Below, in pieces: positions 1,547 to 4,910 of a DNA stretch of 64,000 nucleotides. The stretch covers positions 857,271 through 921,270 of the forward strand of contig CALSMJ010000001.1 in assembly GCA_943787425.1 (NCBI GenBank). Direction: 5' to 3'. Position 1 is the first letter of the stretch; the number at the start of each line of letters is the position of its first letter. Origin of the DNA: an uncultured Pseudomonadales bacterium (GTDB lineage Bacteria > Pseudomonadota > Gammaproteobacteria > Pseudomonadales > Azotimanducaceae). The notes beneath the pieces are model-generated. The model was not told the DNA's origin. It searched no databases and worked only from the letters and a program-made list of their open reading frames with translations. The translations under genes and the position numbers were made by a program.

Positions 1547-2470
1547 TCATGGCGCCGCCATTAAGGTGTTCATTAACCCTGCCAACCGGTATCCCGCCTG
1601 GGCAAGACGCAATTTGGCAACAGGCCAGTTGATTGCTTGATAATCAGGACTCAGGGCGTAACGCTGACTCGACCAAGGTTCGCAGCCCGACTCCGATTTA
1701 CGACAGTACTGAACCCTCGGATGGGTCACCAAATCCAGAGACTCTTGTGCCCAAATCAAGGTCGTTCCCTGATCAAAGTCGTCGGCGCCAGGCAGCGCCA
1801 GTAATTCGATCAAAAGATCAGAACGTGACTTTCCAGTTGAGGCCACCAAGCAAAAATCCCAAACCCCATGAAGATTGGTGCAATCCTCATAACCGGTCAC
1901 CTGCGTGCGATTGCCACCTAGGTCCTCAAAAAAGCTGACGTGGAGCGGCTGATGCAGATCTCCAATCCAATGGCTCAAAAACATCAACGATTGCAATCGT
2001 GGCCAAGGTGAGAGCGCCGCCTGTTGCAGCAAGCCAATGTGCGTTTCAATTGCCGTTAAGAGACAACCCGTTACGCACTTGTCGTAATGGACGGCGGATG
2101 CGTCGCGCGCGACATTGACATAGTGCCAAGACGCAACCGACCTATATTGTTTTAAGGGTCGAACCTGATCCGCCCAAGTACATAAGTCTGCAAACGTCAG
2201 TGCCTTGCCGTCGAACAAATCTGTCCGCTGATCATCGGGCAAGGCTTGCATTAATCCTTGTATTCGGGCCCTGACCTCGGCACTCAATTGGCTTTCAGCA
2301 ACCTCACAGGTCAGTTGATGCCCGGTTGCGGACCAACCCAGCGCAGCAGGCAACCAAAGCAGACTGCCAACCGCCATCAGCGCCGCGATCGTGTGCCGCG
2401 CTTGTCGCGAGAAAGGGTTTTTTGCCCTATTTTGAAGCCGAGGTCTCAAGGGTTTAACCGTTGTCATCAT
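1547..2470 (-). CDS. S1/P1-type nuclease, secreted
   Basis: A zinc-dependent single-strand nuclease/3'-nucleotidase of the S1/P1 family, expected in the periplasm or outside the cell. A basic N-terminus and hydrophobic stretch (about residues 26-44) form a signal peptide. Cleavage after AALG would expose a mature N-terminal Trp in WSATGHQL, and the family uses exactly that residue as a zinc ligand. Further ligand motifs are visible: WADQVR, WHYVN, LSHWIGDLHQPLH and NLHGVWD. Family length is about 260-300 aa; this is 307 aa with its leader. A longer frame opens with TTG at 2515 inside bcp; I prefer the ATG at 2470, 16 bases after the bcp stop, so the two genes probably form one transcript. Confidence 0.88.
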   Translation of the reverse strand: MMTTVKPLRPRLQNRAKNPFSRQARHTIAALMAVGSLLWLPAALGWSATGHQLTCEVAESQLSAEVRARIQGLMQALPDDQRTDLFDGKALTFADLCTWADQVRPLKQYRSVASWHYVNVARDASAVHYDKCVTGCLLTAIETHIGLLQQAALSPWPRLQSLMFLSHWIGDLHQPLHVSFFEDLGGNRTQVTGYEDCTNLHGVWDFCLVASTGKSRSDLLIELLALPGADDFDQGTTLIWAQESLDLVTHPRVQYCRKSESGCEPWSSQRYALSPDYQAINWPVAKLRLAQAGYRLAGLMNTLMAAP

Positions 2471-2486: not shown

Positions 2487-2951
2487 TTAACTGCTCGACT
2501 GCGCCTGCGATTCAATGAAGCGCTTCAAAAAACGCAAGTGTTCGTTCACTCGAAAATCGGCCTGAAGCGCGTCCATAATAATGCCCTCGGGACTAATCAA
2601 ATACGTCACTCGGCGCACCCCGAGGCCCAAAGGACCATTCACTTTATAAGCCTTGATGACCGATTTGTCCGTATCCACCAACAGCGGAAACGGTAATTGG
2701 TGCTGCCTCGCAAAACGCGCATGACTGTCTTCGCTCTGCGGGCTGATCGCCACCACGGGTAACGACAGGGCTTCGAACTCTTCGTGCATATCACGTATGC
2801 CACAAGCCTGCTTAGTTCATCCCGGCGTAAAATCAGCGGGATAAAAGTACAAAACCAAAGCCCGGCTACTGAGAAAGTCTGCCAAACTCAGCACAGTACC
2901 CGATTGATCTGGTAGCGAAAATGCCGGCGCTGTATCCCCTGGATTTAACAT
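2487..2951 (-). CDS. bcp: Peroxiredoxin Bcp/PrxQ, probable selenoprotein (UGA at codon 45)
   Basis: A thiol peroxidase of the Bcp/PrxQ family that reduces hydroperoxides at the expense of thioredoxin. Translation from the ATG at 2951 (GAGGTAGAG upstream) gives a 154-codon protein of normal family length, but codon 45 (2817-2819) is TGA. It falls in FTPG-x-TKQACGIRD, exactly where the family has its peroxidatic Cys (Cys45 in E. coli Bcp); the resolving Cys50 is kept. The C-terminal part is intact (VDTDKSVIKAYKV, GVRRVTYLI). Selenocysteine-containing peroxiredoxins are a known bacterial group, and a SECIS-like hairpin follows the codon, so readthrough as Sec is the best reading. The alternatives are a Cys-to-stop mutation or a sequencing error. 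A conventional call would begin at the internal Met55 and lose the active site. Confidence 0.82.
2784..2803 (-). promoter_or_regulatory. Candidate bacterial SECIS element of bcp
   Basis: In the mRNA, positions +14 to +33 after the UGA can form a seven-pair stem with one bulged G and a five-base loop CGUGA (inner arms CAUA/UAUG, outer arms GUG/CAC). Bacterial SECIS elements sit within about 16-37 nt of the UGA and carry a G in the first bases of a small apical loop. Here the loop begins at +22 and its second base is G. Folding was done by eye. A covariance or bSECISearch run would test it. Confidence 0.6.
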
Positions 2952-3226
2952 TGCTCTACCTCAATTTTGGGCCCTAATAGCCCATCACGCTTATTCAACA
3001 GTACCTAACCGAGCAGCGCTGATTCGTGTGCCATTAATTAGCCTGACCGTCTACCGCGACCGTGCGTCTCACCTCAGCAAGACGCAACCGCTGACTTGAT
3101 GCTAACACTGTCGACCCCGAGGTCATAGCCGGTTGGGGGGACGAAGCAAACCAATGCAAAGATGCCAATCTCGAATAGATTGGGCGATAATAACGGCGCC
3201 TTAATCGCCAATCTGGAAGCAACCTG

Positions 3227-3895
3227 ATGGAAACTTACGAGGTCATGAAAACCACCTTTGCTGCACGATCTTTTACCGATCAAATCGTTTCGAATGAGAC
3301 CCTGTACCGGATATTAGACCATGCCAGATTCGCCCCGAGTGGCGGTAATCGCCAGGGCTGGAAAGTCTTAGTGATTACCGAGCCCTCGATCAGGACCGAT
3401 TTACAAACCCTTATGGCACCCACAATTCAAGCTTACAAAGCGATGGCAGTCGCCGGCGAAACACCTTTTAACAGCATTTCACCTTCTTCTGTAACACAGG
3501 CCAGCATCGATGCGATGTCCCCTGACATGCCCTTCACAGGACAACTCTCGCAAGCGCCGGTTGTGCTGGTGGTCACGGTTGATCTGAACCTGGTGACTGC
3601 GTTCGACAAGGATCTCGACCGCGTCGGCGTCATCGCCGGCGCCTCAATCTATCCCTTTGTCTGGAACATTTTGCTCGCAGCACGCAACGAAGGTTTAGGC
3701 GGTGTCCTGACAACGTTTCTCAGCCATAAAGAGCCCGAGGCAAAACGACTTTTGGGCATTCCAACCGACCATGCTATCGCGGCCCTCGTCGGCATTGGTG
3801 AACCAACTCGGCAGCTCACCAAGCTAAAACGCCATCCGGTGACTGCTTTCACCGCTGTAAATCATTTTTCAGGAGCGCCGCTCGATGCCTCATGA
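3227..3895 (+). CDS. Nitroreductase-family FMN oxidoreductase
   Basis: The 222-residue protein belongs to the nitroreductase fold, which binds FMN as a dimer and reduces nitro compounds, quinones or related substrates with NAD(P)H. The N-terminal FMN-phosphate region AARSFTDQIVSNETL, followed by ARFAPSGGNRQGWKV, is typical. The C-terminal GLGGVLTTFLSH and GIPTDHAIAALVGIGEP segments match the family's second flavin contact. Its last 11 bases overlap the start of trhO, so the two are likely cotranscribed. The physiological substrate cannot be read from sequence. A role as a stand-alone dehydro-F420 reductase is conceivable given the F420 genes at 32-38 kb, but nothing here proves it. Confidence 0.88.
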   Translation: METYEVMKTTFAARSFTDQIVSNETLYRILDHARFAPSGGNRQGWKVLVITEPSIRTDLQTLMAPTIQAYKAMAVAGETPFNSISPSSVTQASIDAMSPDMPFTGQLSQAPVVLVVTVDLNLVTAFDKDLDRVGVIAGASIYPFVWNILLAARNEGLGGVLTTFLSHKEPEAKRLLGIPTDHAIAALVGIGEPTRQLTKLKRHPVTAFTAVNHFSGAPLDAS

Positions 3896-4910
3896 CACCG
3901 ACACCTCCGAACCCTTTGTCATCTCGGCCTTTTATCTCTTTGCCAGGATTGAATCGCCCGAGACGCTGCGAAAAACCCTTCTAAGGTTAGTGGGCCGCTT
4001 TAATATTCTGGGCACGATACTGGTCGCTCCGGAGGGCATTAATGGCACCGTCGCAGGCGCCCGGCGCGAGACAGATCAGCTGTTTGACGCCATTCGAGAA
4101 GATCCCCGCCTGTGCAAACTGCAAACCAAAGAGTCCTACTGCGCTGAGGCACCGTTTCTGCGCGCGAAGGTGAAGTTGAAAAAAGAAATCGTCACCATGG
4201 GTCAACCCGACCTGGATCCGGCGCAGGATACTGGCACGTACATCGCGGCAGAGGACTGGAACGCGTTGATTCAAGACCCTTCTGTGATGTTGATCGATAC
4301 GCGCAATGATTACGAAGTCGAAGTGGGTACGTTTCAAGGCGCTCTGAACCCAAAAACCCAGTCCTTTCGCGACTTTCCTGATTATGCCGCACGCACCCTA
4401 CCAGCCAACAAGGATCAGAAAATTGCGATGTTTTGCACGGGCGGAATTCGGTGCGAAAAATCAACCGCCTACCTCAAGTCGCAAGGCTACTCTGAGGTCT
4501 ATCACCTTGAAGGTGGGATACTAAAGTATCTGGAAACGGTGCCAGAATCAGAATCGCTGTGGGAAGGTGCCTGTTTCGTCTTCGACGAGCGCGTGGCGGT
4601 TGACCATCGTTTGCAACCTGCTGGCTACATCCAGTGTCATGCCTGTCGCCGACCCTTAACGGAGGCGGACTTGATGTTAGCGTCGTATGCGCCAGGTTTG
4701 TCCTGTCGGCACTGCATCGACCAATTAACGAGTGATCAACAAACTCGGTTTGCCGAACGCGAAAAACAAGTTCGGTTGGCCAAGGCTCGAGGCGATGCCC
4801 ATATTGGCGATGCCGCCCGCAAGGATCAGGAAAAACGCAAAGCGCTTAAAGTCGCGCTGAAGCAATCTCAATCAGCGCAGCCGGGTAAGCGGCGCCGTCC
4901 ATCGGCATAA
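3885..4910 (+). CDS. trhO: tRNA uridine(34) hydroxylase, rhodanese family
   Basis: TrhO (formerly YceA) catalyses oxygen-dependent 5-hydroxylation of uridine at the tRNA wobble position, a step towards cmo5U and mo5U. The 341-residue protein has the three expected parts. The N-terminal domain carries APEGINGTVAG (about residues 48-58). A rhodanese domain has VMLIDTRNDYEVEVG and the active-site loop CTGGIRCEK. A Cys-rich tail has CHACRRPL and CRHC pairs. Length matches the family. It overlaps the nitroreductase stop by 11 bases, indicating translational coupling. The charged C-terminal extension is often variable. Confidence 0.92.
   Translation: MPHDTDTSEPFVISAFYLFARIESPETLRKTLLRLVGRFNILGTILVAPEGINGTVAGARRETDQLFDAIREDPRLCKLQTKESYCAEAPFLRAKVKLKKEIVTMGQPDLDPAQDTGTYIAAEDWNALIQDPSVMLIDTRNDYEVEVGTFQGALNPKTQSFRDFPDYAARTLPANKDQKIAMFCTGGIRCEKSTAYLKSQGYSEVYHLEGGILKYLETVPESESLWEGACFVFDERVAVDHRLQPAGYIQCHACRRPLTEADLMLASYAPGLSCRHCIDQLTSDQQTRFAEREKQVRLAKARGDAHIGDAARKDQEKRKALKVALKQSQSAQPGKRRRPSA

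Follow-up and report, generated by a model that had tools for sequence, protein, structure and literature searches.

Selenocysteine (Sec) is the catalytic residue of PrxU, a peroxiredoxin of Eubacterium acidaminophilum. Sec-containing peroxiredoxins of the Bcp type form an established family, well represented in ocean metagenomes and in agreement with the first-pass annotation of the locus described here, which had noted that Sec-containing peroxiredoxins exist in bacteria: an excerpt of PMC9312934 has the entry 'Peroxiredoxin (Prx), COG1225 (Bcp), TxxU' in its table of established selenoprotein families, an excerpt of PMC13188914 lists Prx with TxxU and gives the motif as PxxxTxxU, and excerpts of PMC2398784 and PMC1794560 report, respectively, 253 sequences of Sec-containing Prx (pfam00578, TxxU) from 34 samples of the Global Ocean Sampling and, for several deltaproteobacteria and clostridia, a selenoprotein set that includes peroxiredoxin. 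For bacterial SECIS elements, the excerpt of PMC13188914 gives a loop of 3-9 nt, a stem of 4-16 bp, a spacing of 16-37 nt from the UGA, a G within the first two loop positions and a folding energy <= -7.5 kcal/mol, and a section of PMC4607533 describes for epsilonproteobacteria an apical hairpin of 5/6 bp in which a G is invariant. No paper on the genus studied here was found in the literature searched, though one may exist.

We analysed a stretch of 64,000 nucleotides (the window) which contains, on the minus strand, a Bcp reading frame of 154 codons with an ATG start and a TAA stop (translation of the window), interrupted solely by one in-frame TGA. The features discussed below are:

2487-2951, minus strand: coding sequence of the putative Sec-containing Bcp/PrxQ-type peroxiredoxin (frame, PF00578, structure alignment, start shared with relatives)
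2817-2819, minus strand: TGA codon 45 at the site of the peroxidatic Cys (TPGU motif), predicted to encode selenocysteine (5epf alignment and conservation)
2802-2804, minus strand: resolving Cys at codon 50 (TGT), located five residues past the predicted Sec (alignment, homologue comparison)
2786-2800, minus strand: candidate apical SECIS hairpin GCAUA-CGUGA-UAUGC, arms 2796-2800 and 2786-2790, loop 2791-2795 (pairing, covariation, model match 2771-2819)
1547-2470, minus strand: S1/P1-type nuclease gene, directly downstream on the same strand, a syntenic neighbour outside the recoding (domain match, synteny)
3227-3895, plus strand: nitroreductase-family gene, the divergent upstream neighbour and a synteny marker (domain match, synteny)
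3885-4910, plus strand: UPF0176/rhodanese-domain protein, a synteny marker (domain match, synteny)

It is highly probable that this gene encodes a Bcp/PrxQ-type peroxiredoxin in which selenocysteine, decoded from UGA, would be the peroxidatic residue; the sequence shows the frame, the position of the UGA and its conservation, the hairpin with its covariation, and the presence of selC and selD. The active-site stretch reads FTPG-U45-TKQAC50 in a protein that starts with M and holds a single U. In a profile search with C put for U, PF00578 (AhpC-TSA) scored 127 bits over residues 4-126 (cut-off 26), and the nearest solved structures in a PDB comparison are the Bcp/PrxQ-type peroxiredoxins 5epf and 3drn. 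On 5epf, codon 45 (2819-2817) aligns with the C of TPGCT and C50 with the second Cys, so that frame and structure agree with the first-pass annotation in placing the single TGA at the peroxidatic Cys codon. The ATG start and an upstream TTGAGG stretch are common to the gene and its four closest relatives. An ORF listing without recoding returns just the 100-aa tail (2487-2789), as had been predicted for standard gene callers.

An orthologue was sought in 58 genomes, of which 15 belong to the same genus (the genome under study, G000, is included in both numbers). It was found in 12 of the 15, each a separate assembly, and codon 45 is TGA in all of them; the orthologues of the 11 same-genus relatives share 52-90% identity with the window gene and have one TGA each. 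No orthologue was found in the same-genus genomes G003 (73% complete), G009 (84%) and G012 (72%), and one further genome, G034, from a different genus of the family, also has a TGA-bearing Bcp gene. Across 110 homologous loci (30 from the 58-genome search and 80 of the 469 matches listed in a wider search), 22 have TGA at codon 45 (nine of them second copies, which leaves 13 distinct genes), and 88 have TGC or TGT there. The conservation claimed earlier for the resolving Cys50 holds, as residue 50 is Cys in 12 of the 13 TGA genes (Arg in G034) and in all 72 Cys homologues compared. Between G000 and its closest relative, G010, dN is 0.073 and dS 0.52 before the TGA, and dN is 0.029 and dS 0.952 after it; judged by these rates the segment past the TGA is under strong purifying selection, and its low dN/dS indicates that it is translated.

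A nonsense mutation, a sequencing or assembly error, or a fresh pseudogene, with TGC or TGT as the true codon, would likewise leave ordinary gene calling with only the 100-aa tail, and the lack of selA and selB in the assembly (see below) would be in line with it; however, TGA in 12 of 12 separately assembled same-genus orthologues, together with dN well below dS on both sides of the TGA, rules this reading out for all practical purposes, and we give it next to no chance.

The neighbourhood of the TGA-bearing gene is conserved as well. The nitroreductase gene, the S1/P1 nuclease gene and the next ORF flank it in all seven closest named relatives (L082-L088), and the rhodanese protein does so in six of the seven, L083 running out of contig; gene order is partly lost in more distant relatives. 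By their record titles the relatives are metagenome-assembled Pseudomonadales or Gammaproteobacteria. A protein tree (101 rows, 13 of them Sec) needs three changes between Sec and Cys, its bootstrap being unsettled, and it places the G034 gene on a long branch amid Cys forms. That gene (L018, G034:C106:9385-9819), a TGA-bearing Bcp from another genus with Arg instead of the resolving Cys50, would be a one-Sec enzyme as predicted from its sequence; its genome has 8% contamination. Viral contigs (one relative) and phage records (20, all below 60% identity) were uninformative.

The candidate SECIS hairpin begins its loop 21 nt after the UGA and has a 5-nt loop, a 5-bp stem and a G at the second loop position followed by U, in agreement with the published criteria for shape, G and spacing. 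Codons 52-55 read ATA CGT GAT ATG in all 13 TGA genes. Among the 72 Cys homologues with >50% identity (the 16 more distant of the 88 were dropped for this count), ATA, CGT, GAT and ATG were found in 3, 13, 32 and 15, respectively, and all four together in none. All five apical pairs form in 13 of 13 TGA genes versus one of the 88 Cys homologues (L012, from the same family), and four of the five form in five more Cys homologues. The Cys-type L012 (5/5 pairs) and L152, L159, L160 and L161 (4/5 each) thus have at this position a sequence that comes close to a SECIS, which may be a remnant of a former Sec state or may be due to chance.

A second TGA-bearing peroxiredoxin of the relatives (Prx2) shares the CGUGA loop and its distance from the UGA but has a different stem. 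In a set of 12 Bcp and four Prx2 sequences all 80 pair cells are standard, four of the five pairs show changes in both partners, and neither any of the 500 shuffles nor any slid version reaches the covariation score of 0.665, while two of five shuffle measures are unexceptional (149 and 152 of 500); the double changes count as few events because they are located between two gene families. An 8-bp version of the hairpin was rejected, with 70.3% of cells paired, the two outer pairs forming in 5 of 16 sequences and the innermost in none of the 16. Among the 2,436 TGA trinucleotides of the window, both strands taken together, a CGUG loop at this place with at least 4 bp follows only this one, by a rule that is post hoc, having been written after the loops had been seen.

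Several measures do not favour the hairpin. In G000 the free minimum-energy fold lacks it (-11.7 kcal/mol, versus -8.7 kcal/mol for the best fold that holds it), the apical pair probability in the stretch is about 0.02, and the value of -7.5 kcal/mol is reached for the hairpin only by the fold holding it (-8.7), the free minimum being another fold. Folding energy does not separate the groups, with a mean of -8.0 kcal/mol in the 13 TGA genes versus -9.9 in the 72 Cys homologues, and in synonymous resampling of one sequence the amino acids alone gave a 5/5 stem in 2-3%. An Rfam scan of window positions 2600-3000 (evalue mode) returned three matches with E from 0.18 to 8.1, none of them a SECIS family. 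When a SECIS model was run on G000, scoring 150 of 717 candidates from a first look, it found the Bcp site with 64 bits, itself a training sequence, and a chance-level place with 17.9 bits (E 0.54), and it missed all three other TGA frames of G000 that are described below.

The first-pass annotation had expected selA, selB, selC and selD elsewhere in the genome, and two of the four were found. In the G000 assembly (8 contigs, 93.66% complete) a tRNA-Sec with anticodon UCA lies at G000:C6:96744-96834; ARAGORN calls it tRNA-SeC, and its Rfam tRNA-Sec score of 45.8 bits is slightly below the gathering score of 47. SelD lies at G000:C6:89267-90169, within a 740-aa frame (G000:C6:88052-90274; L063:5679-7901) that carries an N-terminal pyridine nucleotide-disulphide oxidoreductase domain (PF07992) and a CRGC motif, and is of the Ndh-SelD type; Ndh-SelD fusions with CxxC are known from ocean metagenomes, as an excerpt of PMC2398784 relates. 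Less in line with this, elsewhere in the genus ARAGORN names no tRNA-Sec at the G009, G011 and G014 loci examined, where the top Rfam places are tRNA-Ser or tRNA-Leu, and calls the G001 place tRNA-Lys, yet Rfam scores it at 49.8.

These tRNAs also bear on a general reassignment of UGA (e.g., to Trp) or a non-specific read-through of stops, for which nothing speaks besides the in-frame TGA itself. TGA is the stop in four of the nine window genes examined (the Bcp gene included), so UGA is not a general sense codon; among eight own tRNA loci scanned, tRNA-Trp has the anticodon CCA and the tRNA with UCA is tRNA-Sec; and the aligned codon is Cys in all 88 homologues without the stop and Trp in none. 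UGA as Trp is ruled out on these three grounds, and the probability that we attach to reassignment or read-through in general is negligible.

The other two genes expected, selA and selB, are missing from the assembly: SelA was not found in its 8 contigs, and no SelB exceeded the curated cut-off (best 188 bits versus 242, in an EF-Tu-sized frame). This comes close to the absence of all sel genes from a complete genome, which the first-pass annotation had named as evidence against Sec, but falls short of it, as two of the four are present and the assembly is incomplete. SelA is present in 10 of the 15 same-genus genomes and in 21 of 22 other genomes of the family (in two as fragments), so the Sec trait is normal for the family. 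The contig that carries selC and selD (C6) breaks off at the border of the block in which relatives carry selA-selB: its colinearity with G001:C42 runs to the contig's end (C6:120952-121737 pairs with C42:118229-119011, which leaves 0.6 kb of C6), and selA-selB of G001 lies at C42:94917-97936, about 20 kb beyond the point that matches the end of C6. A DNA search of G000 with the selA-selB block G004:C80:1-40000 returned short, paralogue-like matches only, and the block searches each gave two short stretches, of 39 and 40 bases in one and of 306 and 247 bases (67-68%) in the other. The clpA gene of the block was found in 11 of the 15 same-genus genomes (in G012 in two pieces) and is absent from G000, G003, G005 and G014. 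Since C6 ends at the edge of the block and other genes of the block, clpA among them, are missing too, the lack of selA-selB in G000 is probably an assembly gap. G014 (80% complete) fits less well, having the TGA gene without selA, selB and selD.

In G006 (96% complete), which has the TGA-bearing Bcp gene, SelA and SelB were not found either; its selC and selD are on C24 and its clpA on C9, which ends within a gene that lies about 12 kb from selA in G004. Two fairly complete genomes thus break near the selA-selB block (end of G000:C6, 122373; end of G006:C9, 81170), a region that may be hard to assemble.

The failure to find SelA and SelB in both G000 (93.66% complete) and G006 (96%) would also be expected of a relict selenoprotein, with selA and selB truly lost and the UGA ending translation, leaving a dead gene or one that yields a fragment. 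We consider this very improbable, because what is missing from G000 is the whole neighbouring block (the counterpart of G004:C80:1-40000, clpA included) and not selA-selB alone, because C6 ends where that block should start and the clpA contig of G006 likewise ends short of selA, and because G000 keeps selC, selD, the SECIS stem and three other TGA frames. If G000 (and G006) truly had no SelA and SelB, Sec would have to be made and inserted by other enzymes, since tRNA-Sec, SelD and the SECIS hairpin are kept along with at least four UGA-interrupted redox genes in G000; to this we would assign an exceedingly small probability.

The preferred reading, a functional selenoprotein whose selA and selB we infer to lie in an unassembled part of the genome, suggests the following mechanism. 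The proposal made at first sight that this organism decodes UGA as selenocysteine gains support, at the sequence level, from tRNA-Sec(UCA), SelD, the conserved SECIS hairpin and the genus-wide TGA. UGA codon 45 would be decoded by tRNA-Sec(UCA), on which SelA would make Sec from the selenophosphate supplied by SelD, and SelB, bound to the CGUGA hairpin 21 nt past the UGA, would deliver the Sec-tRNA. In two-Cys Bcp enzymes peroxidatic attack is followed by the action of a resolving Cys, and on this basis we infer a cycle in which Sec45 would attack and reduce the peroxide, becoming a selenenic acid, the selenenic acid would form a selenenylsulphide with Cys50, and thioredoxin or another thiol donor would then regenerate the enzyme.

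The Bcp gene is accompanied by other redox genes with an in-frame UGA. A PF00578 search of G000 gave eight places, four of which (the Bcp gene included) have one in-frame TGA; none of the other seven resembles Bcp by eye, and there is no second Bcp-class gene among the matches listed, below which rank two further G000 matches to the Bcp query. The three further TGA-bearing frames are:

G000:C1:1376226-1376567: AhpC/TSA frame L206, motif APYUGC (PF00578 52 bits, U read as Cys)
G000:C5:71744-72085: AhpC/TSA frame L210, motif SSWUGC (PF00578 26.5 bits, cut-off 26, U read as Cys)
G000:C4:443773-444135: AhpC/TSA frame L207, motif GHWUPYC (PF00578 54 bits, U read as Cys)

In each, the TGA stands 34-37 residues into the PF00578 match, at a Cys-like active-site place. 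L206 and L210 have a CGUGU loop 20 nt past the UGA, with stems of 6 and 4 bp, and in L207 inspection revealed no hairpin satisfying the G rule. Their sequences suggest that all three are probably further selenoproteins of G000. In 15 regions of relatives with TGA-bearing Prx-like frames, the stop aligned to the Cys of a query in six and to Ala in one, and eight had no match with the queries L206, L210 and L207. Prx2, with TGA at FTGGU (L065, L068, L069, L076; G001:C42:105754-106128 and equivalents), has a hydrophobic N-terminus that by eye resembles a signal peptide; in relatives the gene's distance to selB is about 8 kb. Its carriers are G001, G004, G007 and G013; it was not seen in G000, whose corresponding block is missing.

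In this uncultured gammaproteobacterial genus, the one Bcp-class gene found in the G000 assembly would thus be a selenoprotein, and at least four AhpC/TSA-fold genes of G000 would be truncated by ordinary gene calling. The common CGUGA/CGUGU loop, whose distance from the UGA hardly varies, provides a simple, testable rule for finding more selenoproteins of the lineage.

The Sec-containing Bcp-type peroxiredoxin is a known family, and what is new is a member in an uncultured lineage; the gene founds no new class of system. With the Sec-Prx family (COG1225 Bcp, TxxU; excerpts of PMC9312934, PMC13188914 and PMC2398784) it shares PF00578, a TPGU motif that fits TxxU, a hairpin right past the UGA and the existence of Cys homologues elsewhere, and it is placed there by tabulated motif and family. 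PrxU of E. acidaminophilum (NF040737; cited in the excerpt of PMC13188914) is likewise a peroxiredoxin, but its model has 233 positions and gives the window protein 43.8 bits, the cut-off being 270, so the gene is no PrxU orthologue. The bSECIS model (excerpt of PMC13188914) is matched in the 5-nt loop, the 5-bp stem, the second-position G followed by U and the 21-nt spacing, whereas the CGUGA/CGUGU loop shared within the lineage and a G000 hairpin that is not the free minimum-energy fold set the present element apart. Among NCBIfam models the thioredoxin-dependent thiol peroxidase of Bcp/PrxQ type (NF006960; structures 5epf and 3drn) scores highest, at 111.2 bits and under its curated cut-off of 140, so the gene is filed as Bcp/PrxQ-type only and not as that equivalog; the two are alike in length, in a TPGCTKxAC-type site and in a resolving Cys at +5, and they differ in that the peroxidatic residue is Cys there and, as predicted, Sec here.
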